NCBI RefSeq assembly: GCF_036195045.1
Contig: NZ_CP108100.1
Span: 7,750,001 to 7,814,000, forward strand
Source of the DNA: Streptomyces sp. NBC_00236
Lineage (GTDB): Bacteria; Actinomycetota; Actinomycetes; Streptomycetales; Streptomycetaceae
DNA: 64,000 nt
Reading direction: 5' to 3'
Shown piece after piece: positions 8,523-40,387 of the stretch. The notes beneath the pieces are model-generated. The model saw nothing but the letters and a program-made list of their open reading frames with translations. It ran no database searches and was not told where the DNA came from. The position numbers and the translations under genes are program-made. The first letter of the stretch is position 1; every line of letters begins with the position of its first letter.

Positions 8523-9617
8523 CTACGCCGAGTCCCGTACCACCAGTGCCGGTTCGAAGATCACCGAGGTCGTCGCGCCGTCCGGCTTCGACAGCCCGTC
8601 GATGAGCAGCCGGGCCATCTCGGCGGCCATCGCCTCGACCGGCTGGCGGATCGTGGTCAGCGGCGGCCGGCAGGCGGACGCCGCGCTGCTGTCGTCGAAG
8701 CCGATCACCGCGACGTCCTCGGGCACCCGCCGTCCCTGTTCCCGCAGCACATGGCAGGCGCCCGTCGCCATCAGGTCGTTGGCCGCGAACACCCCGTCCA
8801 GATCCGGGTGTTCGGCCAGCAGCCGCTCCATCGCGGCCTCGCCGCTCTCCTGGGTGAACTGCCCTTCCGCGATCGGGATGTACGGATGTCCGTGCTGCGC
8901 CAGCGTGTCGCGGAAACCGGCCAGCCGGTCCTGCCCGGCCGGCACGTCGAGCGGCCCGGTGATCGTCACGAGGCGGCGGCAGCCGCGGGCCAGCAGATGT
9001 TCGGCGGCCAGCCGTGCACCGTCCTGGTGGGCGAGGTCGACATAGCTGATCCGGACCGGCCGCGCGGGCCGCGCGTACAGCACCGCGGGCAGTCCGGCGT
9101 CCGTGAGCATGCCGGGCAGCGGGTCCTCCGCGTGCGTCGAGACGACCAGCGCGCCGTCCGCGCTGCCCTGGCGCAGGAACGAGACCACGTCCTCACGGGC
9201 CCGTGACGTCTCGGCGAACATCAGGACCGGGTGCATCCCGCGTGGCCGGAGGTAGTTGACCACCCCGGTCACCACCCGGCCGAAGAACGGGTCGGCGAAG
9301 ACCTGCGCGGTGAAGGACGACCCGCTCTCCGGATCGGCCGTGTCCGCGGCCGAACCGCCGTCGGCCGGTTCCGGGTCGACCCCGGCGCCCGACACCACCA
9401 GGGCGATGGCGTCGGTGCGCCGGGTCACCAGGGAGCGCGCCGCGCGGTTGGGTGCGTAGCCCGTGACGGAGACCGCTCGGCGCACGGCCTCCTGGATCAC
9501 CGGGTCGACATTGCGTACGCCGTTGATCACCCGGGAGACGGTGGCGCGGGAGACACCGGCCGCCCTCGCCACGTCCTCAAGGGTGGGTGTACCGGCCGAT
9601 CGTGGAGCATCCGTCAT
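8523..9617 (-). CDS. LacI-family transcriptional regulator of the GH3 gene
   Basis: 364 residues: an N-terminal LacI helix-turn-helix (about 11-35, TLEDVARAAGVSRATVSRVI) and a periplasmic-binding-protein-like effector domain, with the usual dimer-core and IGFDDSS motifs near the C terminus. An insertion of about 25 residues (DPEPADGGSAADTADPESG region) interrupts the start of the effector domain. The gene begins 8 bp after the GH3 stop and is probably cotranscribed with it. A perfect GGAGAGCGCTCTCC palindrome lies 22-35 bp upstream of its ATG, inside the GH3 3' end, and a longer copy precedes GH3. Autoregulation and control of GH3 are inferred from those sites. Confidence 0.9.
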   Translation of the reverse strand: MTDAPRSAGTPTLEDVARAAGVSRATVSRVINGVRNVDPVIQEAVRRAVSVTGYAPNRAARSLVTRRTDAIALVVSGAGVDPEPADGGSAADTADPESGSSFTAQVFADPFFGRVVTGVVNYLRPRGMHPVLMFAETSRAREDVVSFLRQGSADGALVVSTHAEDPLPGMLTDAGLPAVLYARPARPVRISYVDLAHQDGARLAAEHLLARGCRRLVTITGPLDVPAGQDRLAGFRDTLAQHGHPYIPIAEGQFTQESGEAAMERLLAEHPDLDGVFAANDLMATGACHVLREQGRRVPEDVAVIGFDDSSAASACRPPLTTIRQPVEAMAAEMARLLIDGLSKPDGATTSVIFEPALVVRDSA

Positions 9618-9625
9618 GAGCGCAT

Positions 9626-15050
<5,425 letters not shown>

Positions 15051-28208: not shown

Positions 28209-28583
28209 TCAGAAGACCGCGTTCGCCACGGCGGCCCCGGCGAACGAGAGCCCCACGCCCGCGCAGACGGTGAGGAGCAGGTATCCGCCCGCCAGGCCCA
28301 CCCGGCGGGCGGACGTCAGGGTGAGCAACTCGTAGGAGAACGTCGACCACGTCGACAGTGCTCCGCAGAATCCTGTCGCGAGGAGCAGGTTCAGCCGCGT
28401 TCCCAGGTCGCCGTCGGTCGCCGCCTCCGCGACGAAGCCCAGGATCAGGGCGGCACCGGCGTTGGCCGCGAAGGTGCCCCACGGGAAAGCGGTGTGGAAG
28501 CGGAACTTCGCGTCCACACCGAGCAGATAGCGCAGCGGCGCGCCCACCAGCCCGCCGGCGAGTACGAGCAGCCAGTCGGTCAT
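28209..28583 (-). CDS. crcB: Fluoride channel subunit CrcB/Fluc (second copy)
   Basis: 124 residues and four membrane segments, the full length of a Fluc subunit. It carries the early RYLLG motif and the GFCGALSTWSTF motif around the central membrane break. Fluc proteins form dual-topology dimers that let fluoride leave the cytoplasm. The ATG overlaps the stop of the first crcB as ATGA, so the two are coupled. Paired genes usually give obligate heterodimers with fixed opposite orientations. No fluoride riboswitch is recognisable upstream of the pair. Confidence 0.92.
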   Translation of the reverse strand: MTDWLLVLAGGLVGAPLRYLLGVDAKFRFHTAFPWGTFAANAGAALILGFVAEAATDGDLGTRLNLLLATGFCGALSTWSTFSYELLTLTSARRVGLAGGYLLLTVCAGVGLSFAGAAVANAVF

Positions 28584-29050
28584 CGGGCCTCGCTCCCCGC
28601 GCCGTAGGAACGCCCGAAGGCGGCATGGGTGGCGAACGCGCCCGCGGTCACCGCGGCCAGTGCGGCCACCACGGTCAGCAGCAGACAGCCGACCGCGTAA
28701 CCGGGCTGATGGTTCTCGAACAACTCCCGCACGTTGTCCGTGTAGTGCGAGAACGAGGTGAACCCACCCAGCACACCGGTGCCCAGCAGCGGACTGATCA
28801 GCCGGGGCGCATCGGGGAAGCGCAGTTTCAGGGTGACCATCAGCACACCCATCAAGAAACACCCCACCGTGTTGACCAGCAGGATCGTCCACGGGAAGGC
28901 CGTGGTGCCGGTCGGCCAGAGGCGCTCGGCGCCGTACCGGGCGGCGGCTCCCGCCGCGCCGCCGACCGCGACGGCCGCCACGACCGACAGCTGCACCCCG
29001 GGGTGGTGGTCGGGGTGGCTGTGGCGGTGCAACTCCATCTTGATCGACAT
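28580..29050 (-). CDS. crcB: Fluoride channel subunit CrcB/Fluc (first copy)
   Basis: 156 residues: a His-rich N-terminal extension (MELHRHSHPDHH) of about 20 residues, then four membrane segments with AARYGAERLW, NTVGCFLMG and GVLGGFTSFSHYTDN. The last motif replaces the usual STFS Ser/Thr pattern with TSFSHY, a difference expected between the two halves of a heterodimeric Fluc. It may start at ATG 29050 or 29038. It is divergent from the urea transporter gene. Confidence 0.9.
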   Translation of the reverse strand: MSIKMELHRHSHPDHHPGVQLSVVAAVAVGGAAGAAARYGAERLWPTGTTAFPWTILLVNTVGCFLMGVLMVTLKLRFPDAPRLISPLLGTGVLGGFTSFSHYTDNVRELFENHQPGYAVGCLLLTVVAALAAVTAGAFATHAAFGRSYGAGSEAR

Positions 29051-29157: not shown

Positions 29158-30204
29158 GTGACCCCATGTCTTGATTGGGGGGTTCGTTTCTTCCTGCCCG
29201 CAGTACGGAAGAACGCCGCCGCCGAGTCGCTGGAGCCAGTCTTGTCCCTCGTCGAGCCGGAAATCGTCCGGCGGCTTGAGAAACGTCAGCCGTCCGCATA
29301 CATCCTTGCCTCCCTGCGAGGTGTCGGACAGGTCGACCTCCAGCCCGGACTGCTGACCGGCGCCGCGATCCTCATTGCGCTGTGGGTCTCGGGCTGGGAG
29401 ACCGGCCTCTTCGCCACCCTCGGCACGCTGATCGCCACCGCGACCGCCTACGTCCTCGCTGTCGACCGGGCGGGTATCGCGCTCGGACTCCAGGGATACG
29501 CCGGCTGCCTCACGGGCATCGCCCTCGTCTCCTCGCTGGGCAACCATCCGGCCACCTACGTGCTGACCGTCGTCGGCGCCATCATGTGCACGATTCTGAT
29601 GGCCGCGCTGGGCACCTTCCTCGCCCCCTTCGGGCTCACGCCCCTGACCGCGCCGTTCTGCCTGGTCTCCGGAGTGATGGTGCTGGGAGCCCCCTCGTTC
29701 GAGCGGGTCTGGCACGGAGCCCCGGCCGCCGTGTCCAGCACGACCAGCGGGGACACCGCACTGTCGTGGAACGACCTCTGGCACGCGTTCTTCAACAACG
29801 TCTCGCAGATCTTCCTGGTCGAGAGCTGGTACGTCGGGCTGATCATGCTCGTCGGGCTCGCCCTGGCCGGCCTGCGCGTCGTTCTCTACGCGGCGGCAGG
29901 AAGCGTGATGGGGATCGTCGCCGCCTGGGCGCTGGGTGCACCCACGGCGCTGATCGCCAGCGGCATCTACGGATACAACGCGGTGCTCGTGGCCATCGCC
30001 ATCGGTGCCGTCTTCCTGGCCAACAACGTCTGGACGGGGGTCTACGCCCTGTTCGGCGCGGCGGCGACCACCGGCCTGACCGCGTCGCTGACGTCCTTCT
30101 TCAAATCGTTCGGCGGCCACACCTTCACCTGGCCGTTCATCCTCACCACCTGGGTGTTGATGGCGGCCGTACCCCTGCTGCCGCGCCTGCGCCGGAGCGA
30201 GTGA
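29158..30204 (+). CDS. Urea transporter (UT family)
   Basis: About 348 residues. After a polar N terminus of about 45 residues there are ten membrane segments in two repeats, with the bacterial UT patterns [13 protein letters not shown] and [12 protein letters not shown] that line the urea pore. It is a channel-like facilitator of urea entry and directly precedes the urease operon on the same strand, so its role here is clear. The start is uncertain: GTG at 29158 has no good ribosome site, and a TTG near 29242 preceded by GGAG would remove the extra N terminus. The following ureA is 64 bp downstream. Confidence 0.88.
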
Positions 30205-30268
30205 CGGCTCCCGGCCGGCACCGGACCTGCTGCCCTCAGCCCGTACATCACCGAGGAAGGTACTGACG

Positions 30269-30574
30269 ATGAACCTCGCACCTCGCGAGATCGACAAACT
30301 GCTGGTCTACGTCGTGGCCGACCTGGCCCGCAAGCGCCAGGGCCGCGGCCTCAAGCTCAACTACAGCGAGTCGGTCGCGCTGATCACCGAGGCGATCCTC
30401 GAAGCGGCCCGTGACGGCAAGAGCGTCGCGGACTGCATGGAGCTGGGCCGCCATGTCGTGGGTGAGGCCGACACGATGGACGGTGTACGGGAGATGCTCG
30501 GCCTGCTGCAGGTCGAGGCGTCCTTCGTGGACGGGACCAAGCTCGTGTCCTGCCACGACCCCATCGGCGGCTGA
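30269..30574 (+). CDS. ureA: Urease subunit gamma
   Basis: 101 residues, the standard UreA length, with [34 protein letters not shown] and [16 protein letters not shown] typical of the family. It forms the structural ABC trimer of urease with UreB and UreC. GAGGAAGG upstream gives a strong translation start. First structural gene of the operon; the CbiX-like gene begins 3 bp after its stop. Confidence 0.97.
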
Positions 30575-30577
30575 CCC

Positions 30578-31615
30578 GTGGCCGAGCCCGTTGCCGTCAT
30601 CGCAGTGTGCGGTCACGAAGCCGCCTACGGGCGTGCGCTGGACGGCGTCGTGGACGGCGGGGTCAGCATCGTGTCCAGCGGGCGCGAACTGTTCCGGAGC
30701 ATCGCCGCGCACGGGCGCCGGAACAGCGAGACCGTCGTCGTTCCCATGACGCTCGGCCGCGACCCCGAACTCGTCGCGGACACCGCCCGGACGCTGCGCG
30801 CCGTACCCGCCGGCGAGCGGGGTTCCACCGTGCTCGCCGAGCCGTTCGGCACCTCCCAGCACCTGGTCGCGTGGCTGCGGGCGGCGGCGGGCCGGGTACC
30901 CGAGGCCTCCGCGCTGCTGCTCACCGCACCGTCCGGGGACCCGTTCGAGGACGCCGAGCTCTACCGGATCGCCGCGCTCGTACGGCGCTACGGCCGCAAC
31001 GGCCTCGTCGAGGTGGCGTTCACCGGGGGAGACCCGGACCCGGCCGAGGGCATCCGGCGGTGCAGGCTGCTCGGCGCGCGGCGGGTGACGCTGGTCCCGG
31101 CCGCGTTCGCGCTGCCGGATGTGCCCGAGGCCGGATCGGTGCCCGTCGACCGGGCGGATCCGCTCATCCCGGCGTCGGCACTGCGACGCGTCCTCGGAGA
31201 GCGGGTCGCCGACGCCCGACGGCGTTGGCGCGAGCACGGGGACGACGGCGTCGCGGCCGGCCTGACCGCGGCGGAGAACCACGGTCACTCCCACACGCAC
31301 CCGCCGGGCGAGGGACACGAGCACGGGCACGGTCCGGGCCACTCGCACGACCACAGCCACGATGCGGGCCACTCGCACGGGCACGACCACAGCCACGAGC
31401 ACAGCCACTCGCACGGGCACGACCACAGCCACGAAGCGGGCCACTCGCACGAGCACAGCCACGACCACAGCCACGAAGCGGGCCACTCGCACGAGCACAG
31501 CCACGACCGTGACCACGATCCGGGCCACCCGCACGCGCACGGTCCCGGCCCCCTGCACACGCACCACCACCCGTCCGCCCCCGGCGCGGACCGAGTCGTC
31601 AGGAGCATCGCATGA
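30578..31615 (+). CDS. CbiX/sirohydrochlorin-chelatase-like protein with His-rich tail, inserted in the urease operon
   Basis: 345 residues. Residues 1-215 resemble the CbiX/SirB class II chelatase fold: an opening beta strand with VCGHEAAYG, where family members have a metal-binding HGS, and a later [14 protein letters not shown] segment that lacks the second metal-binding His of the family. Residues 230-335 are a tail with about 40 His in HSH, HDH and HEH repeats, built to hold many metal ions. The gene lies 3 bp after ureA and overlaps ureB as ATGA, so it is an integral operon member. The operon has no ureE, the usual nickel chaperone, which also carries a His-rich C terminus. I infer nickel storage or delivery to urease; a chelatase acting on a tetrapyrrole is the alternative, made less likely by the altered active site. 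Confidence 0.85.
31277..31571. repeat. Imperfect short tandem repeats encoding the His-rich tail
   Basis: Runs of GCCACTCGCACGAGCACAGC-like units recur with a 6-base substructure (CAC every second codon). At least three near-identical blocks of about 36-45 bp encode [14 protein letters not shown]. Such repeats can expand or contract by slippage, so tail length may vary between strains. Confidence 0.8.
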
Positions 31616-32070
31616 CGTTCCGTCAGAAATATCTGTACGGCAAGGGCCCCATCGAGCTCAACGCGGGCCGCCGCACGGTGAAGCTCACCGTGAGCAACAC
31701 CGGTGACCGCGCCGTTCAGGTCGGTTCCCACTACCACTTCTTCGAGGTCAACTCGGCCCTGTCGTTCGACCGCCAGAAGGCGCTGGGCATGCACCTCAAC
31801 ATCGCCGCCGGCACCTCCGTGCGGATCGAGCCCGGCGGTTCGCGCGAGGTGGAACTGTGCGCGTACGGCGGCACCGGGCGTCTCGTCGGCTTCAGCGGAC
31901 TGCTCAACGGCAGCCTCGCCTCCCATCCCGCCCGCGTCGAGGCCGTCCGCAAGGCCATCGAGCAGGGCTTCGAGGGAGCGCAGGGCACCCCTGACGCCAA
32001 GCCGAGGCGCGCCGGCAAGGAATCCAAGGGCTCCAAGGCCACCAACGAGAAGAAAAAGGGTTCGCGCTGA
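31612..32070 (+). CDS. ureB: Urease subunit beta with Lys-rich C-terminal extension
   Basis: 152 residues. Residues 1-105 are a normal UreB ([25 protein letters not shown] and LVGFSG motifs). The remaining 45 residues form an unusual extension, first amphipathic then very basic ([20 protein letters not shown]). Typical UreB is about 100-110 residues long. ATGA overlap with the His-rich gene and a one-base overlap with ureC indicate coupled translation. Confidence 0.95.
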
Positions 32071-33794
32071 TGCCCATCCTGCCCCGCAAGCAGTACACCG
32101 ACATGTTCGGGCCGACGGTCGGCGACCGGTTCCACCTGGCCGACACCAACCTCATCGTCGAGGTCGAGAAGGACTACAGCGAGGGCCAGTACGGCGACGA
32201 GGTCCTCTACGGCGGCGGCAAGACCATGCGCGACGGCATGGCCTCCGACCCGCAGGCCACCGCTGCCCAGGGCGCACTCGACACCGTCATCACCAACGTG
32301 GTCGTGATCGACCCGATGGTCGGCGTCGTCAAGTGCGACATCGGCATCAAGGACGGCTTCATCGTCGGCATCGGCAAGTCCGGCAACCCGCAGACGCAGA
32401 ACAGCGTCGACCCGGACCTGGTCATCGGGCCGGGCACGGAAGCCATCGCGGGCGAGCACCTCATCGCCACCGCGGGTGCCATCGACACCCACGTCCACCT
32501 GATCGCCCCGCAACAGGCCGAGCAGGCGCTGACCAACGGCATCACCACGCTGATCGGCGGTGGCACCGGTCCTTCGGACGGTTCCAACGGCACCACCTGT
32601 ACCCCCGGCCCGTACAACATCGGCAAGCTGCTCCAGGCGGCCGAGTCCATGCCGGTCAACCTCGGCATCATGGGCAAGGGCAACGGCAGCCTTCCGGAGG
32701 CGCTCAACGAGCAGGTCGTCGCCGGTGCCTGCGGGCTCAAGGTGCACGAGGACTGGGGCGCCACCCCGGCCGTCATCGACAACGCGCTGAACGTCGCCGA
32801 CCGGTACGACGTCCAGGTCTCCATCCACACGGACAGCCTGAACGAGGGCGGCTTCTTCGAGGACACCCGCTCCGCGATCGACGGCCGGGCCATCCACACG
32901 TTCCACAGCGAGGGAGCGGGCGGCGGTCACGCCCCGGACATCCTGCGCATCGCCGGCGAGCCGAACGTCCTGCCGTCCTCCACCAACCCGACGCTGCCGT
33001 ACACCGTGAACTCGGTGGACGAGCTCCTCGACATGGTCATGGTCTGTCACCACCTCAGCCATGACATCCCCGAGGACGTGTCCTTCGCCGACAGCCGGGT
33101 CCGGGCCGAGACGATCGCCGCCGAGTCGGTGCTGCACGACCTCGGTGTGATCAGCATCTTCTCCTCCGACTCCCAGGCCATGGGCCGCATCGGCGAGTCC
33201 GTCACCCGCGCCTTCCAGACCGCGCACCACTGCAAGGACAAGCTGGGCACGCTGGAGGGCGACTCGGCCCGCAACGACAACCAGCGGGTCCTGCGCTACC
33301 TCGCCAAGGTCACCATCAACCCGGCCATCGCCTCCGGCATCTCCGACCACGTGGGATCGATCGAGAAGGGCAAGCTCGCCGACATCGTGCTCTGGCCCAT
33401 CCACTCCTTCGGCGCCAAGCCGAAGATGGTGATCAAGGGCGGCATCATCTCCTGGGCACAGATGGGCGACCCCAACGCCTCGCTGCCGACCCCGCAGCCC
33501 GTCATCTACCGGCCGATGTTCGGCCAGTACGGCAAGGCGATGCAGGCGACTCACGCCACCTTCATGTCCCAGGCGGCCATCGCCGCCGGGGTCCCGGCCG
33601 AACTCGGCCTGGAACGCACGGTCCTGCCGGTGCGCCGCACCCGCACCATCGGCAAGCACAACATGGTCCGCAACGACGCCCTGCCCGACATCAAGGTCGA
33701 CCCGGAGACGTTCAAGGTCACGCTCAACGGCAAGGTCGCCACCATCGACCCGGCCGAGAAGCTGCCCCTCAACCACCTCTACTTCCTGGTCTAG
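32070..33794 (+). CDS. ureC: Urease subunit alpha (catalytic)
   Basis: 574 residues, full length. The nickel ligands are in place: H141 and H143 (DTHVHL), carbamylated K224 ([10 protein letters not shown]), H253 (SIHTDS), H279 and D367 (SSDSQAMGR). The mobile flap Cys is C326 (MVCHHLSHD). It converts urea to ammonia and carbamate with a bi-nickel site assembled by UreD, UreF and UreG, all encoded next. It starts on the ATG overlapping the ureB stop by one base. Confidence 0.98.
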
Positions 33795-33799
33795 GGCCG

Positions 33800-34552
33800 A
33801 TGTACCGCGATGAGCGTGACACCGCCAAAGACACCGTGGCCACGGTGAACGGGATCGGCACGGGTACGGGTCTGGGGCCGCTGCTGGTCAGCCTCCAGCT
33901 GACCGACTCCGCGTTCCCCAGCGGCTTCTACACGCTGTCGCACAGCCTGGAGGGCTTCGCGCAGGCCGGGGCCGTCGACTCCGGCAGCCTGCCGCTCCTG
34001 CTGGAGGACCTGCTGCTGCACGGTGTAGGTCCCGCCGATGCCACCGCGCTCGCCCTCGCCCACCGTGCGACGGCGGCCGGTGACCCGGCGGCGGTCGTCC
34101 GGATCGACGAGCATCTCCTGGCCACCAAACTGGGCCGGGAGATGCGCCAGGCCGCCACCCGGACCGGACGCCAGCTCCTGGACCTGGGCCAGGAGGTGTA
34201 CGGCCGGCCGGAGATCGGCGACTACTTCGACCGGGTCGTACGGAGTGAGGCCCCCGGAACGCAGGCGGTGGCCGCAGGAGTCATCTACGCGGCGACGGGC
34301 GTTCCGGTCCGGCAGGCCGTCGCCGCGGACCTGTTCGCCTTCTGCGTCAGCTTCGCGGGCGCCGCGCTGCGGCTGCGGCTGACCGACCACCGCACGACGC
34401 AGACCCTGATCCGGGGCGCCGCACCCGTCATCGAGAAGACCGTCGAGGCCGCGCTGCGGCGCGAGCTCGACGACGTCGGCGCCACCGTATTCGCCTCGGA
34501 CATCATGTCGGGCCGTCATGAACGCGCCGAGGCACGGCTCTTCGCCAGCTGA
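33800..34552 (+). CDS. ureF: Urease accessory protein UreF
   Basis: 250 residues with an N-terminal extension of about 27 residues, then the conserved LQLTDSAFPSGFYTLSHSLE motif and an all-helical body ending in the FASDIMSGRHE region. UreF bridges UreD and UreG during nickel insertion and stimulates GTP-dependent activation. It starts 5 bp after ureC; the true start might be an internal GTG that removes part of the polar extension. Confidence 0.94.
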   Translation: MYRDERDTAKDTVATVNGIGTGTGLGPLLVSLQLTDSAFPSGFYTLSHSLEGFAQAGAVDSGSLPLLLEDLLLHGVGPADATALALAHRATAAGDPAAVVRIDEHLLATKLGREMRQAATRTGRQLLDLGQEVYGRPEIGDYFDRVVRSEAPGTQAVAAGVIYAATGVPVRQAVAADLFAFCVSFAGAALRLRLTDHRTTQTLIRGAAPVIEKTVEAALRRELDDVGATVFASDIMSGRHERAEARLFAS

Positions 34553-34584
34553 AATCCACCCCGAACCACACAGGGAGCAGCACC

Positions 34585-35205
34585 ATGGACGACAACGTAC
34601 TGCGGGTCGGCATCGGCGGACCGGTCGGATCGGGCAAGACCGCGCTGATCGAGGCGCTGGTTCCGATGCTGATCGAACGAGGCCACCGTCCCGCCGTCAT
34701 CACCAACGACATCTACACGCAGGAGGACGCCCAGCACGTCCGCCGCACGCTGGCCGGGGTCCTGGAACCCGAGCGGGTCGTCGGTGTCGAGACGGGGGCC
34801 TGCCCGCACACCGCCGTGCGCGACGACCCCACGATGAACCTGGCGGCCGGCGCGGAGATGCTGGAGCGCTTCCCGGACACCGACACGCTCCTCTACGAGT
34901 CCGGCGGCGACAACCTCACGCTCACCTTCAGCCCGGCGCTCGTGGACCTATTCATCTTCGTCCTGGACACGGCGGAGGGCGAGAAGATGCCCCGTAAGCG
35001 CGGGCCCGGAATCACCGACTCCGACCTTCTCGTCATCAACAAGATCGACATCGCGAAGTACGTGCGCACGGACATCAACGTCATGGAGTCCGACGCCCAC
35101 CGCGTACGCGACAACCGCCCCGTCGTCCTCACCGACTGCCTCACCGGCCAGGGCATCGACGAGATCGCGGTGTACCTCGAATCGCGCCGCAAGGTGCTGA
35201 TCTGA
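34585..35205 (+). CDS. ureG: Urease accessory GTPase UreG
   Basis: 206 residues, SIMIBI GTPase with P-loop GPVGSGKT (12-19), the nickel-binding CPH motif (TGACPHTAVRDD), and NKID for guanine recognition. It hydrolyses GTP to hand nickel to apo-urease as a dimer. It has no His-rich N-terminal extension, unlike plant and some bacterial UreG, so nickel buffering must come from elsewhere. The ATG follows AGGGAG at good spacing. Confidence 0.97.
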   Translation: MDDNVLRVGIGGPVGSGKTALIEALVPMLIERGHRPAVITNDIYTQEDAQHVRRTLAGVLEPERVVGVETGACPHTAVRDDPTMNLAAGAEMLERFPDTDTLLYESGGDNLTLTFSPALVDLFIFVLDTAEGEKMPRKRGPGITDSDLLVINKIDIAKYVRTDINVMESDAHRVRDNRPVVLTDCLTGQGIDEIAVYLESRRKVLI

Positions 35206-35206
35206 C

Positions 35207-36166
35207 GTGCGGCTCGCCCCGTACCGGCCCCGTGCCGACCGGCTCGCCGAGACGTACTACACCGCGGTCCGCGTCCCCCCGGACGTGGCGGCCCTGGCCT
35301 CCGTGCCGGACACGCTGGCCCCGGGCTCCCCGGCCAAGGTCGGCATCCTCGACCTGGCCTTCGCGGTACGGGGCGAGCGCACCGAACTCGTCGAGCGCTA
35401 CCAGAAGACACCCCTGCAGATCATGCGGCCGCTGTGGATCGACCCCGAACTGCCCGGGATGAGCTACGTCTACATGATGGCGACCGGCGGCGGGATCGCC
35501 CAGGCCGACCGCTACCGGATGGACTTCCGCTGCGGCCCTGACACCCAGGTCCACCTGACCACGCAGGCCGCGACCAAGATCTTCCGGATGGAACACGACT
35601 ACGCGAGCCAGCGGGTGCATCTGACGGCGGAGGCCGGGAGCTATGTCGAGTACCTGCCGGACCCGCTGATCCCGTTCAAGGACGCCCGCTTCTACCAGCG
35701 GACCGAGGTGGTCGTCGCCCCGGGCGCCACCGTCGTCGTCGGTGACACGTTCACCGCAGGGCGGCTCGCCCGCGGTGAACGGCACGCCTACCGGGTGCTC
35801 GCCACCGACCTGCACATCAGCCGGCCCGACGGCACGCTGCTCGCCGTGGACACCCTGCGTCTGGCTCCGGGGAGGAGCGGCGAGGGAGTCCTGGGGCCGG
35901 GCGTGTTCGCCGGTCACGACCACGTCGCCTCACTGTTCGCCGTGACCGACCGTGTCCCCGCCACCGAACTCGCCGACGCCCTGCACGACGCCCTCGCGGA
36001 GCTGGGCGTCCTGTACGGGGTGAGCGTCCTGCCCCGGGACTGCGGCGCATGGGTGCGGGTGCTGGACGACAGCCCGATCCGGACCGCCGCCGCACACGAG
36101 GCCGTCCGCCAGGCCGTCCGCCGCCTGCTCACCGGCCACCCGGCCCCCGACCTGCGCAAGCCCTGA
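35207..36166 (+). CDS. ureD: Urease accessory protein UreD
   Basis: 319 residues with the UreD/UreH signature HLTTQAATKIFRM, YLPDPLIPFKDARFYQ and the C-terminal VLYGVSVLPRD segment. UreD binds apo-urease and provides the tunnel through which nickel reaches the active site. GTG start one base after the ureG stop. It completes the F-G-D accessory set; ureE is absent. Confidence 0.94.
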   Translation: MRLAPYRPRADRLAETYYTAVRVPPDVAALASVPDTLAPGSPAKVGILDLAFAVRGERTELVERYQKTPLQIMRPLWIDPELPGMSYVYMMATGGGIAQADRYRMDFRCGPDTQVHLTTQAATKIFRMEHDYASQRVHLTAEAGSYVEYLPDPLIPFKDARFYQRTEVVVAPGATVVVGDTFTAGRLARGERHAYRVLATDLHISRPDGTLLAVDTLRLAPGRSGEGVLGPGVFAGHDHVASLFAVTDRVPATELADALHDALAELGVLYGVSVLPRDCGAWVRVLDDSPIRTAAAHEAVRQAVRRLLTGHPAPDLRKP

Positions 36167-36195
36167 CCCCCACCGACCCACACGAGGATCCGCCG

Positions 36196-37545
36196 ATGAA
36201 CACCGCTCCCGCGCCGATGCCGGCCGCGTACGACTCCGGGGACACCGCCTGGCTCCTCGCCGCCACCGCCATGGTGCTGTTGATGACGCCCGGCCTCGCC
36301 TTCTTCTACGGCGGCATGGTGCGCACCCGCCATGTGCTCATGATGATCAAGATGAGCTTCGCCGCGCTGGCGTTCGGCACCCTCGTCTGGTGGGTCATCG
36401 GGTACACGCTGGCGTTCGGGCCCGATGTCGGCGGCGCCGGAATCATCGGGAACCTCGACCACGTGTTCATGCACGACATCGAGCTGAACACGCTGACCGG
36501 GGCGATCCCCACGTACGTCTACAGCACCTTCCAGATGGGCTTCGCCATCATCACGGTGGCGCTGGTCAGCGGATCGATCGCGGACCGCGCCACGATGAGG
36601 GGGTGGCTCGTCTTCGTCGTGCTGTGGCTGCTCATCGTCTACATCCCCATCGCGCACTGGGTGTTCGACACGGACGGCTGGATCGTGAAGCACCTCGGCG
36701 CCCTCGACTTCGCCGGCGGTCTGCCGGTGGAACTCAACTCCGGCGTCGCCGGTCTGGCCGTCGCCCTCGTCCTGCGCGCGCCGCGCGACTTCGCCCGCCG
36801 CGAGGAGCGCCCCAACAACATTCCGCTCGTGGTCATCGGCGTGGGCCTGCTCTGGTTCGGCTGGTTCGGCTTCAACTCCGGTTCCGCGCTGACCGACCAG
36901 GGAACCGCCGCCGCGGCCTTCATCAACACCCAGCTCGGGGCCGCCGGAGCCATGGTCACCTGGCCGCTGGTGGAGAAGTGGCGCACCGGCAAGGTCACCA
37001 CCATGGGCGTCGTCTCGTCCGCCGTCGCGGGCATGGTCGCCATCACCCCGGCCTGCGGTGAGATCGACACGCTCGGCGCGGTCATCACCGGCCTCGTCGT
37101 CGGCGCGGTCTGCGCCTTCGCGATCACGCTCAAGTTCCGCTTCAACGTGGACGACACGCTCGACGTGGTGGGCGTGCACGGCGTCGGAGGGCTGATCGGC
37201 CTGATCATGGTCGGACTCTTCGCCACCGCGCGCATCAGCGGCAAGGAAGGGCTCTTCTACGGAGGAGGCTGGGGGCTGCTCGGCAAGCAGCTCGTCGCCA
37301 TCGTCTCCGTGATCGCCTTCTCGTTCATCCTCACCTGGCTCATCGCCAAGGCCGTGGACCTGACCGTCGGATTCCGTGCCAAGGAGGAGTACGCGACCGT
37401 CCCCGGCGAGGAGGAGGAGCGCGCGTACGACTTCCAGACCGCCGAGCGCCTCGGCGCCCTGGTCTCCGGCAAGCCGGCGTCCGAGGACGACGAACTCGTC
37501 CAGCAGATCAGCTCGTTGCTGCGTTCCCGCGAGGGCGGCCGGTAG
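36196..37545 (+). CDS. amt: Ammonium channel Amt with a His-to-Glu twin-His variant
   Basis: 449 residues, eleven membrane segments. Family motifs GVHGVGG, WFGWFGFN and FYGGMVRTR are present. The second pore His is H328. At the position of the first pore His (E. coli AmtB H168, in GGTVVHIN) the sequence is GGLPVELN, so Glu179 replaces it. Yeast Mep1 and Mep3 carry the same substitution and transport with altered pH dependence and speed. The C-terminal tail of about 65 residues is acidic. It follows ureD by 29 bp on the same strand, so ammonium from urease could be exported or recaptured here. ATG chosen for the GAGGATC ribosome site. No glnK gene is adjacent. Confidence 0.93.
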   Translation: MNTAPAPMPAAYDSGDTAWLLAATAMVLLMTPGLAFFYGGMVRTRHVLMMIKMSFAALAFGTLVWWVIGYTLAFGPDVGGAGIIGNLDHVFMHDIELNTLTGAIPTYVYSTFQMGFAIITVALVSGSIADRATMRGWLVFVVLWLLIVYIPIAHWVFDTDGWIVKHLGALDFAGGLPVELNSGVAGLAVALVLRAPRDFARREERPNNIPLVVIGVGLLWFGWFGFNSGSALTDQGTAAAAFINTQLGAAGAMVTWPLVEKWRTGKVTTMGVVSSAVAGMVAITPACGEIDTLGAVITGLVVGAVCAFAITLKFRFNVDDTLDVVGVHGVGGLIGLIMVGLFATARISGKEGLFYGGGWGLLGKQLVAIVSVIAFSFILTWLIAKAVDLTVGFRAKEEYATVPGEEEERAYDFQTAERLGALVSGKPASEDDELVQQISSLLRSREGGR

Positions 37546-38953
37546 CCGGGCCCGGCGGGGTCGGGTGCAGGAACTCCCGTACATAGGTGCGGTGCCACCA
37601 GCACCCGGTGTCCCGCAGTTCGCGCCAGGTCGTGTACCGGTAGCGGTACACCCTGGCGCGGACGTGTGCCGGCGGCGCACCCGGGAACGGGTTGTGGCGC
37701 AGCAGCCGCAGCGTGTCCCGGTCGTTGTCCAGCAGCCGCTCCACGAACGGCCCGAACCAGGGGCGGGCGTACGCGGGCGAGAGCGCCGCGAACCACATCA
37801 TCCAGTCGAGCCGCAGATGGTACGGGGCGAACTGGCGCGGCAGCCGGCGCGGATCGCCCGGCTTGCCCCGGAAGCCGTACTCCCGCCAGACCGTCCCCGG
37901 GCGGATCACCGCCTCGTCGGTGCCCTCGACCACCACCTCCATCCGGACGCGGCTGATGCTGCCGAAGGCGCCGTACGTGTTGACCAGGTGCAGCGGGTCG
38001 AAGGACCGGTTCATGATCTGCCGGCGCGACAGGAGGTTGCGGGCCGGGCGATAGCTGAGGACCACGACCAGGGCCGTGACGGCGATGACCACCACCTCGT
38101 ACCAGAGCGGCGCACCGGCCTGCGCGGGCGGCTCGGTGACCGGGGACCAGTCCACGGCCGACAGGGCGAGGGCGATCGTCAGCCAGTTGAGCCAGGCGAA
38201 GTTGCCCGACAGCACGAGCCAGAGCTGCGTGAGGACCATCAGCAGCGCCGCCGCGCTCGCCACCGGCTGCGGGGTGAAGAGCAGCACCGGCACGAGGAGC
38301 TGCGTCACATGGTTGGCCGCCACCTCGGCCCGGTGCACGGGGCGGGGGAGGTGGTGGAAGAACCAGCTCAGCGGGCCCGGCATCGGCTGGGTCTCGTGGT
38401 GGAAGTACAGGCACGTCAGCTTGCGCCAGCACGCGTCGCCGCGGATCTTGATCAGTCCCGCGCCGAACTCCACCCGGAACAGCACCCAGCGCAGCAGCCA
38501 CAGCACGAGCACCGGCGGCGCCGTGTGCGCGTTGCCGAGGAAGACGGCGAGGAACCCCGTCTCCAGGAGCAACGACTCCCAGCCGAAGCCGTACCACGTA
38601 CCACCGACCTGCACGATCGACAGATACAGCGCCCAGGGCAGGGCCCACAGGACCATGGCCCCCCACAGGGGTACGAAACGGTCCGTACCCGCGAGCAGCG
38701 CGACGGCGAGCGCACAGCCGAACCAGGCGACCAGGGCGAAGAACCGGTCGGAGTAGTGCAGGCGGAACAGGCCCGGGGCGGTGCGCCAGTCCGTCCGGCG
38801 CAGGACCTCGGGGGCGGGCAGCATGCCGCGCTCGCCGATCAGCGCCCGGAACTGGAGCGCGGCGGTGAGGAAGGCGGCCAGATAGATGACGGCCAGGGCC
38901 TTCTGGAAGAGGAGCCGGCCGAGCCAGTACCCGTCTGCGGTGAACCAGTCCAT
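37508..38953 (-). CDS. Lipase maturation factor family membrane protein
   Basis: 481 residues with eight or more membrane segments in the first 330 and a soluble C-terminal domain. GWESLLLETGFLAVFLG, FGAGLIKIRGD and the downstream MWFAALSPAYARPWF match the LMF1/LMF2 family, whose animal members assist folding of secreted lipases. The bacterial role is unproven. Its 3' end overlaps the amt 3' end by 38 bp on the other strand. A Pro/Arg tail ends the protein. Confidence 0.88.
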   Translation of the reverse strand: MDWFTADGYWLGRLLFQKALAVIYLAAFLTAALQFRALIGERGMLPAPEVLRRTDWRTAPGLFRLHYSDRFFALVAWFGCALAVALLAGTDRFVPLWGAMVLWALPWALYLSIVQVGGTWYGFGWESLLLETGFLAVFLGNAHTAPPVLVLWLLRWVLFRVEFGAGLIKIRGDACWRKLTCLYFHHETQPMPGPLSWFFHHLPRPVHRAEVAANHVTQLLVPVLLFTPQPVASAAALLMVLTQLWLVLSGNFAWLNWLTIALALSAVDWSPVTEPPAQAGAPLWYEVVVIAVTALVVVLSYRPARNLLSRRQIMNRSFDPLHLVNTYGAFGSISRVRMEVVVEGTDEAVIRPGTVWREYGFRGKPGDPRRLPRQFAPYHLRLDWMMWFAALSPAYARPWFGPFVERLLDNDRDTLRLLRHNPFPGAPPAHVRARVYRYRYTTWRELRDTGCWWHRTYVREFLHPTPPGPATGRPRGNAATS

Positions 38954-38987: not shown

Positions 38988-39512
38988 TCACTCCTGTGGT
39001 GCGTGTCCCTCCCTGACGATCCGGCGCAGCGTGCGGCCGAGCCGGCGCGCGTACCACCGCTGCGCCACCGGCACGAACGGTCCGGCGATGCGGGTGTACC
39101 AGCGTGCGGGCCGGCTGAACGCCATCACGGTGAACGTGACCGTGCCGTCGTCCGCGAGCTCGGCCACGAAGCACTCCTCGCCGCACTCGGGGTGGCGGGG
39201 GAGCGTTCCGTACGCGAATCCGATGCGTTCGGGACCGTACTCGGCCCAGACGACGCGGCACGGCGCGGTCAACCGGAACGGGCCGGCCCCCAGCGCCACC
39301 CGAACGGAGGCACCGGGCTCGGCGCGTGGCGCGGAGGCCCTGACCCGCGTCCCGGAGACGCGGTGCATACGGAATTCGGTGATCGCGGCGCCCGCGGCCT
39401 CGAAGTCGGCACGACCGTGTCCGATCCGGGTGCGGTGGTGCAGATGGTGGTAGCCGTCGGGGAGTGGGCCGAGCCGGGTGCTGCCCGCCTCCGGATACGT
39501 GAGGGTGCTCAT
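38988..39512 (-). CDS. DUF1990 family protein
   Basis: 174 residues, compact beta-rich domain of the DUF1990 type (YAYGTLP-like FAYGTLPRHPECGEECF and FSRPARWYTRIAGP motifs). No signal or membrane segment. ATG overlaps the YndJ stop as ATGA, so it is the second gene of a two-gene operon; the same pairing occurs in other bacteria. The biochemical function is unknown; the fold is thought to resemble lipid-binding domains, which is inference. Confidence 0.82.
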   Translation of the reverse strand: MSTLTYPEAGSTRLGPLPDGYHHLHHRTRIGHGRADFEAAGAAITEFRMHRVSGTRVRASAPRAEPGASVRVALGAGPFRLTAPCRVVWAEYGPERIGFAYGTLPRHPECGEECFVAELADDGTVTFTVMAFSRPARWYTRIAGPFVPVAQRWYARRLGRTLRRIVREGHAPQE

Positions 39513-40387
39513 GCGGTCCTTCCTTCGTGGGTTCCTTCGCGGGTTTCTTCATGGGCGGAACGGGGGTTCAGGCGTTGCCAGGCGAGCACCGAGCAGAGCG
39601 CGAAGCCCAGCGCGTTGCCCACGCCGTGGGTGGCGGCCATCCAGGTCAGAGTGGGGTGCGGGAGGCCGGTGGCCTCGCCCAGGGCCCAGCTCAGTGCCAG
39701 CGCCATGGTCGCCGCGAGCACGGCGGCCGAGGCGGCGAGCAGCAGCCCGGTGGTCCGGTCGCGGGCCGCGGGCCTGACCGTGCGCCAGGTCAGGAGAGCG
39801 ACGGTCCACATGCCTGCTGTCAGGACCACTGCCCCCGCGAGTTCGGCCCAGTCGCCGATGAAGTAGCCGGTCAGGACGAGCAGGGTGCCCAGCGGAACGC
39901 TCAGCGCCGCGAACCGCCCCGCCGCGCTGTCGACCACGCGGCCGACCAGTCCGGCGACCAGAGCGGCGGCGAATCCGGCGAAGTGGAAGTGCGGCACGGT
40001 CAGCGCCAGGATTCCGAGGCCGAAGCCGAACAGCGGACGCCCCGAGCGCTCGGCGACCAGCGCGACGGCGGAGACGGCCGGGGCCGACAGGGCAGTGAGC
40101 AGGGCGATCTCGGCGGGTGCTGTGCGCCATGACAGCAGCGGACCGGGGCGCCGGACGATTCGGGCCGGGGCATGCAGGGCGAGGAGTACGGCGCCCAGTC
40201 CGTACCCGAGGGCCAGGACGGTGGCCAGGGGGCCGCGCGGCAGCCAGAGGGCAACGGCACCCGGCACGGCGAAGACCAGCCACAGCCGCCGTATCCGGTC
40301 CAGGTCGGGGGCATCCGCCAGCCGCAGTCCGGAGGGCACGATCACCAGCATGCCCAGCATCACGATCAGACCCACCAGGACCGACAC
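39509..40387 (-). CDS. YndJ-like integral membrane protein
   Basis: 292 residues with eight or nine membrane segments and the conserved LTVPHFHFAGF and THGVGNALGF histidine motifs of the YndJ family. The clustered His residues inside predicted helices suggest a metal or haem site, but no function is known. It starts with GTG at 40387. Transcription should come from the TTGAAC/TAGAGT promoter bracketed by two identical palindromes, so the pair is tightly repressed by a factor not encoded here. Confidence 0.82.
   Translation of the reverse strand: MSVLVGLIVMLGMLVIVPSGLRLADAPDLDRIRRLWLVFAVPGAVALWLPRGPLATVLALGYGLGAVLLALHAPARIVRRPGPLLSWRTAPAEIALLTALSAPAVSAVALVAERSGRPLFGFGLGILALTVPHFHFAGFAAALVAGLVGRVVDSAAGRFAALSVPLGTLLVLTGYFIGDWAELAGAVVLTAGMWTVALLTWRTVRPAARDRTTGLLLAASAAVLAATMALALSWALGEATGLPHPTLTWMAATHGVGNALGFALCSVLAWQRLNPRSAHEETREGTHEGRTA

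Follow-up and report, generated by a model that had tools for sequence, protein, structure and literature searches.

The urease operon and the CBX gene

The window analysed here is a stretch of 64,000 nucleotides from Streptomyces sp. NBC_00236 (contig NZ_CP108100.1, positions 7,750,001 to 7,814,000 of the forward strand), and the subject of this work is a gene that lies between ureA and ureB in its urease operon and encodes a CbiX-like protein of 345 amino acids with a histidine (His)-rich tail, called CBX hereafter. The operon is complete and runs on the plus strand in the order given by a first-pass annotation of this DNA: a urea transporter gene (29158-30204, PF03253, E value 1.5e-81, start uncertain), ureA for the gamma subunit (30269-30574, PF00547, PRK13241 above cut-off), the CBX gene (30578-31615), ureB for the beta subunit (31612-32070, PF00699), ureC for the alpha subunit (32070-33794, PF00449, TIGR01792 above cut-off), ureF (33800-34552, PF01730), ureG (34585-35205, TIGR00101 above cut-off), ureD (35207-36166, PF01774) and the ammonium transporter gene amt (36196-37545, PF00909, TIGR00836 above cut-off). 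The CBX gene was recognized as an open reading frame with a marginal match to the Pfam family CbiX and a profile alignment to true CbiX, and the UreG of this operon has only MDDNVLRVGIG ahead of the P-loop, a short N terminus that lacks a His-stretch. The host genome is a single contig of 8.33 Mb with four urease alpha genes and, outside the operon, three genes of two-domain CbiX.

The CBX gene starts with GTG 3 bp past the stop codon of ureA and its end overlaps the start of ureB by ATGA, both of which had been read correctly in the first-pass annotation, as had the approximate number of His residues in the tail. Of the 44 His of CBX, the last 115 residues contain 40 and the first 230 contain four. 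Residues 1-224 (30578-31249, plus strand) constitute a two-lobed chelatase-like domain, delimited by an AlphaFold2 model and by the alignment of both halves to CbiX, and residues 225-345 (31250-31612, plus strand) are the tail, which holds 40 His by count. With a third-position guanine + cytosine content of 0.90 (domain) and 0.91 (tail), both look like parts of a real gene. The first 17 residues of the tail are widely common to the aligned Streptomyces relatives, and among complete, unmasked copies linked to urease the tail ranges from 24 to 350 residues and from 7 to 75 His (that of the copy at locus L044 is masked). At 31601-31615 on the plus strand the end of the CBX gene contains a Shine-Dalgarno-like AGGAG and overlaps the start of ureB, which is a likely reason why a C-terminal RSxA is often conserved in CBX.

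Relationship of CBX to CbiX chelatases

The Pfam match to CbiX reaches 20.9 bits with full-length CBX, where the cut-off is 22, and 22.4 bits with residues 1-245, and CbiX is matched at an E value of 0.1 or less in 35 of 47 CBX relatives. Comparison of profiles by hhalign, with the true CbiX profile built from the three CbiX of the host genome and five relatives, gave a probability of 98.2 and an E value of 4.4e-14 over 217 columns, in which both lobes are aligned. In addition, the AlphaFold2 model of residues 1-245 has a mean predicted local distance difference test score of 92.1 and a predicted template modelling score of 0.88, with alpha/beta secondary structure in both halves. NCBIfam gave only one match for CBX, far below cut-off, and a phmmer search with the domain against PDB sequences gave chance matches only. 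With the CBX profile, the same sequences yielded a designed triose-phosphate isomerase (TIM) barrel at 6.6e-05, which was set aside as a chance match, a CbiX chain at 0.11 and two sirohydrochlorin cobaltochelatase sequences at 5.1 and 6.3. A database search for CBX relatives matched 315 proteins, and among the best 120 that were listed, most of the named ones are annotated as sirohydrochlorin chelatase or CbiX. Judged from these alignments, CBX is a homologue of the two-domain CbiX chelatases.

The catalytic His and glutamate of class II chelatases are described in PMC11301274, and the His pairs of CbiX in passages of PMC7689651. In the profile alignment H13 of CBX faces H36 of true CbiX, that is, the first catalytic His is kept; H13 is found in 61 of 62 CBX rows and the adjacent E14 in all 62 (codons at 30614-30619, plus strand). 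The position of the second catalytic His, H102 of true CbiX, is occupied in CBX by E64 (codon at 30767-30769, plus strand), and this column is variable among the relatives, so that the profile alignment confirms the absence of the second active-site His stated in the first-pass annotation. In the C-terminal lobe the corresponding first position carries no such His in CBX (TAPSGDP), nor does it in the true CbiX aligned here (VGRGSTDP). The FIEL segment of CbiX, which we take to be the expected place of the glutamate metal ligand, falls in a gap of the profile alignment, which is weak there. The three true CbiX of the host genome keep both catalytic His. The motif CxxC occurs in none of 62 CBX relatives from the loci and in one of the 120 listed database relatives of CBX, in contrast to all 120 listed relatives of true CbiX.

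A His-rich tail is also carried by one of the true CbiX of the host genome and by its relatives, the median number of His in the last 60 residues being 13 in the listed relatives of that CbiX and 16 in those of CBX. Therefore, the CBX tail is probably an inherited one that became larger, and not a new addition. In Bacillus megaterium CbiX-L (PF01903), according to passages of PMC7689651, removal of the C-terminal His-rich tail leaves cobalt insertion unaffected, and storage and delivery of metal have been proposed as its role. CBX thus resembles CbiX-L in both lobes, in the first catalytic His and in the tail, but differs from it by the missing second catalytic His and, in a weakly aligned part, the gap at the glutamate segment, by the urease context, by an additional His at position 95 and by the nearly constant absence of CxxC. 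Another related enzyme is CfbA, the nickel sirohydrochlorin chelatase of coenzyme F430 synthesis, which shows, according to PMC11301274, that class II chelatases can use nickel; CfbA, however, is an active homodimeric chelatase with two catalytic His per subunit, whereas CBX is a two-lobed protein with one such His. The simplest history would be that CBX descends from a CbiX-L whose tail was retained and grew while the chelatase chemistry was lost.

Distribution and gene order

A genome scan gave 57 CBX-related loci, and ureA was matched just upstream in 51 of them, seven of which end with the contig. In the remaining 44, ureB is the next gene in 43. The exception is L051, where (8894-12500) ureA consists of its first 19 residues only and CBX, ureF, ureG, ureD and amt are kept; the genome concerned also holds a second, complete CBX operon (L043). 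CBX with ureA synteny occurs in Streptomyces, Kitasatospora, Mangrovactinospora, Catenulispora, Cellulomonas, Oerskovia, Arthrobacter, Microterricola, Sanguibacter and Mumia, and the host families are Streptomycetaceae, Catenulisporaceae, Cellulomonadaceae, Micrococcaceae, Microbacteriaceae, Sanguibacteraceae and Nocardioidaceae.

Looking from the urease side, 59 ureC genes of the CBX-operon type, 70-100% identical to that of the window, are present in 54 of 249 Streptomycetaceae genomes, and CBX lies upstream of 51 of them. Three of the other eight are at contig ends, one being cut within CBX, and five (L168, L169, L170, L171 and L173) are truly CBX-less operons of this urease type. Conversely, at three of 54 places with a strong CBX match ureC of this type does not follow downstream; these are two stand-alone genes (L174 and L175) and one place at a contig end. 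A chance placement of CBX was rejected because of the synteny with ureA and ureB across the loci and the presence of CBX upstream of 51 of the 59 ureC genes.

A gene for a NicO-like nickel permease is found between ureD and the urea transporter gene in six of the 42 CBX loci longer than 14 kb, in Arthrobacter, Microterricola and Sanguibacter; it was checked by Pfam in L057 (14616-15806), L064 (14577-15755) and L070 (14397-15491) and lies near 14.6 kb in L060, L066 and L067. Judged by titles and abstract openings, the literature searches made among open-licence papers gave no earlier report of the CBX gene, and the passages on CbiX in PMC2667541 and PMC4531530 do not place CbiX in a urease operon.

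UreE, the His-stretch of UreG and CBX

The first-pass annotation had placed CBX in the position of ureE. UreE passes nickel to UreG in other systems, as stated in passages of PMC7055735, and the part of the claim that concerns the absence of UreE stands: the UreE_N family (PF02814) has no match in the 8.33-Mb host genome, where UreE_C (PF05194) was not searched, and CBX itself has no UreE match at an E value of 1 or less in Pfam. The word replacement, however, cannot be kept in its plain sense. None of the 249 Streptomycetaceae genomes sampled has UreE_N, the urease alpha gene being present in 238 of 249 genomes of the family drawn likewise, and in the class as a whole UreE_N was found in eight of 394 genomes, one of these matches being below cut-off. 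Moreover, the two further urease operons with accessory genes in the host genome (L011 and L012) contain neither UreE nor CBX. CBX as a plain substitute for ureE was consequently rejected; in a family without UreE_N in the genomes sampled, CBX stands where a His-stretch on UreG would be expected.

Such a stretch is known from Haas et al. (2009; PMC2770081), in passages of which genomes with ureG and without ureE are stated to carry a His-rich motif on UreG, with two exceptions, Bradyrhizobium japonicum and Frankia CcI3. In the present analysis a UreG was scored as having a His-stretch when the part between the chosen start and the P-loop had two or more His, or the last 40 residues had four or more. 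By this rule 60 of the 61 scored operons that lack both UreE and CBX have the stretch, as against none of the 44 scored CBX operons. It is also missing from all nine UreG adjoining UreE, of which three were scored by the fixed rule and six were read by eye (the start of UreG in one UreE case, L178, is ambiguous). The sole exception among the 61, L112, depends on the chosen start, and an upstream ATG gives a His-bearing one. Counted from the chosen start, 11 residues precede the P-loop in 43 of the 44 CBX operons, the commonest beginnings being MDDNVLRVGIG (16) and MSENVLRIGIG (8); for L043 the start taken by the rule leaves 53 residues ahead of the P-loop, again without His.

No UreG motif was present in 31 of 139 loci, which went unscored: 13 CBX loci, seven cut by a contig end and six stand-alone, and 18 others, 12 of them from family f63. 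A looser UreG pattern recovered three of the 18 (L096, L142 and L164, all with UreE) and not the other 15. The loci L092, L094, L116-L118 and others of family f63 are urease operons with no UreG motif in the DNA examined, which may mean that the UreG rule fails here too or that ureG lies elsewhere.

CBX can be compared with both known arrangements. Like UreE, it is encoded in the urease operon together with a UreG without His-stretch, and the two actinobacterial UreE that were read also have a His-bearing C terminus; UreE, however, belongs to another family and its gene follows ureC in L086, L087 and L179, whereas CBX lies between ureA and ureB. In the arrangement with a His-stretch on UreG (PMC2770081), to which M. 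tuberculosis UreG belongs, a His-rich stretch stands in for UreE as part of the GTPase, whereas in the CBX operons a second, chelatase-like protein carries the His-rich stretch and UreG is without it.

Operons without CBX and relatives without urease

The five CBX-less operons constitute a kind of natural experiment. In L169, L170 and L173 the UreG carries an N-terminal stretch like HHHDHD, read by eye, which is seen in none of the 44 scored CBX operons. In a careful tree of ureC with 53 chosen rows, the CBX type is one clade (100/100), in which L173 branches first (99/97) and L169 next (92/91), and in which L168 and L171 stand inside among CBX operons. A quick tree groups L170 with L169 (99) and leaves the first branches unresolved. 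An earlier tree with 119 of 126 rows, from which seven close CBX rows had been left out, joined the CBX type with some UreE operons at a support of only 85, and the careful tree puts those UreE operons on the other side, so that the two trees disagree on which group is sister to the CBX clade. With trees rooted at the midpoint only, the branching order fits a course in which the UreG stretch is older and disappeared with the arrival of CBX, with later losses of CBX; a loss of CBX with regain of the UreG stretch would be an alternative. In L171 a stretch between ureA and ureB resembles, by eye, the C-terminal end of the CBX domain, so the loss of CBX there may be recent.

The opposite case, CBX relatives outside urease operons, was found eight times: L053, L054, L055, L063, L071 and L073 in Catenulispora, and L174 and L175 in one other genus of Streptomycetaceae. 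No urease gene, His-rich tail or H95 was found at these loci, two of which (L055 and L073) are on short contigs of 6.5 and 8.1 kb, where a more distant urease is possible. They form two separate clades in a midpoint-rooted tree, each inside the urease-linked sequences. H13 and E14 are kept in them and their tails hold at most four His. Position 95 (codon at 30860-30862, plus strand) is His in all 54 urease-linked rows and in none of the eight stand-alone rows, where it is leucine in five and glutamine in three. Since H95 and the tail are missing in the stand-alone copies and H13 and E14 are kept, H95 and the tail are the features that are tied to urease. The neighbours of several Catenulispora stand-alone loci are presumably genes for trehalose-phosphate synthase/phosphatase, and the relative in L063 is also near an aromatic acid exporter-like gene.

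Neighbouring genes

Two CrcB genes (PF02537) lie at 28212-29050 on the minus strand, back to back with the urease operon. CrcB-like genes are near 35 of the 42 CBX-type urease loci longer than 14 kb and near none of 82 other urease loci, in which the flanks are shorter. CrcB proteins are presumably fluoride channels, and fluoride inhibits urease, so the pair may protect urease. UreB of the window (152 amino acids) carries a lysine-rich tail (31921-32070) past the beta-subunit domain, which ends at residue 100. Downstream of the operon, on the minus strand, are a lipase maturation factor-like gene (LMF1, 37511-38953) and a YndJ-like gene (39509-40384). The host genome also contains a further, divergent urease gene set (L013, 6737-9102), the ureC of which is 47% identical to that of the window and is a long branch in the ureC tree; no accessory genes were matched within the 16 kb examined there, and the gene that follows the set is presumably for agmatine deiminase.

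Proposed role of CBX

The best reading of CBX is that proposed in the first-pass annotation, a nickel store or metallochaperone for urease built on a retired class II chelatase fold of the CbiX-L type, to which we would give a probability of roughly 0.78; it agrees with the UreG without His-stretch beside CBX and with the link of H95 and the tail to urease. The 40 His in 115 residues suggest Ni(II) binding, and the binding and handover of nickel may be pictured as follows. CBX would be made in step with UreA and UreB through translational coupling, and its tail would buffer or collect Ni(II). From the tail nickel would move to a site in the domain that binds it more tightly, made perhaps of H13 together with E14 or H95, and CBX would pass it on to the complex of UreG, UreF and UreD. 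With nickel supplied in this way, UreG would not need a His-stretch and the operon would not need UreE. CBX looks like a third solution besides these two.

A wider proposal is more tentative, and its chances appear to be somewhat below even: that CBX represents a third class of urease metallochaperone, derived from a retired chelatase of the B12 pathway that became a nickel donor dedicated to urease, which gained in H95 a nickel site or a docking site for UreG and displaced the UreG stretch, itself the displacer of UreE, so that three proteins would have carried one His-rich nickel function in one operon lineage.

Several observations weigh against a nickel-delivering CBX. L168 and L171 have neither CBX nor a His-stretch on UreG, so the module can be missing; the genomes of these two have four and three urease alpha genes, respectively, and other operons might consequently help in trans. 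All CBX operons belong to a single clade, and the contrast in UreG therefore comes from a small number of independent transitions, perhaps two or three. In L051, ureB and ureC were not detected, though CBX, ureF, ureG and ureD remain, and the CBX of L045 has tyrosine at position 13 and seven His in its tail. A NicO-like match is also present anywhere in three of 82 non-CBX loci, whose flanks are shorter. Finally, His-rich tails bind zinc, cobalt and copper too.

Among the other explanations, a passive nickel sink, in which the tail does no more than shield the cell or keep nickel in store, without passing it specifically to UreG, and the domain is a scaffold, is unlikely and yet the most probable. 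His-rich nickel stores are a known idea, and a tail that varies so widely in length and His number among the urease-linked copies is what would be expected of a buffer; a mere scaffold, on the other hand, agrees poorly with the conservation of the domain outside the tail, in which H13 and E14 are nearly invariant, and with H95, the distribution of which follows urease linkage and so points to a site there or to contact with a partner in the urease system. That CBX, instead of delivering nickel, acts for a different metal or helps the urease subunits to assemble, for example as a co-translational chaperone between UreA and UreB, is improbable. The position of its gene between structural genes and its overlap with ureB, with the accessory genes downstream instead, would suit such a role, which leaves unexplained, however, the UreG without His-stretch beside CBX as well as the presence of a His tail in urease operons and the lack of one elsewhere. 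Least probable is a sirohydrochlorin chelatase that is still active, for siroheme, cobalamin or a nickel tetrapyrrole, and is in the operon by accident. The homology to CbiX, database names such as sirohydrochlorin chelatase and the use of nickel by class II chelatases are in its favour, but the second catalytic His is replaced, the segment of the glutamate ligand is in an alignment gap, three CbiX with both His are encoded elsewhere in the genome and the CBX gene is tied to urease; this explanation was rejected as unlikely on the profile alignment with true CbiX.

The pattern described here suggests that the entries named sirohydrochlorin chelatase or CbiX among the 120 listed relatives of CBX are misnamed. 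Many urease operons are without UreE, and the His-stretch of UreG was the answer proposed for their nickel supply; CBX would be a new kind of answer, and it looks like a metal-insertion enzyme that was turned into a metal carrier.

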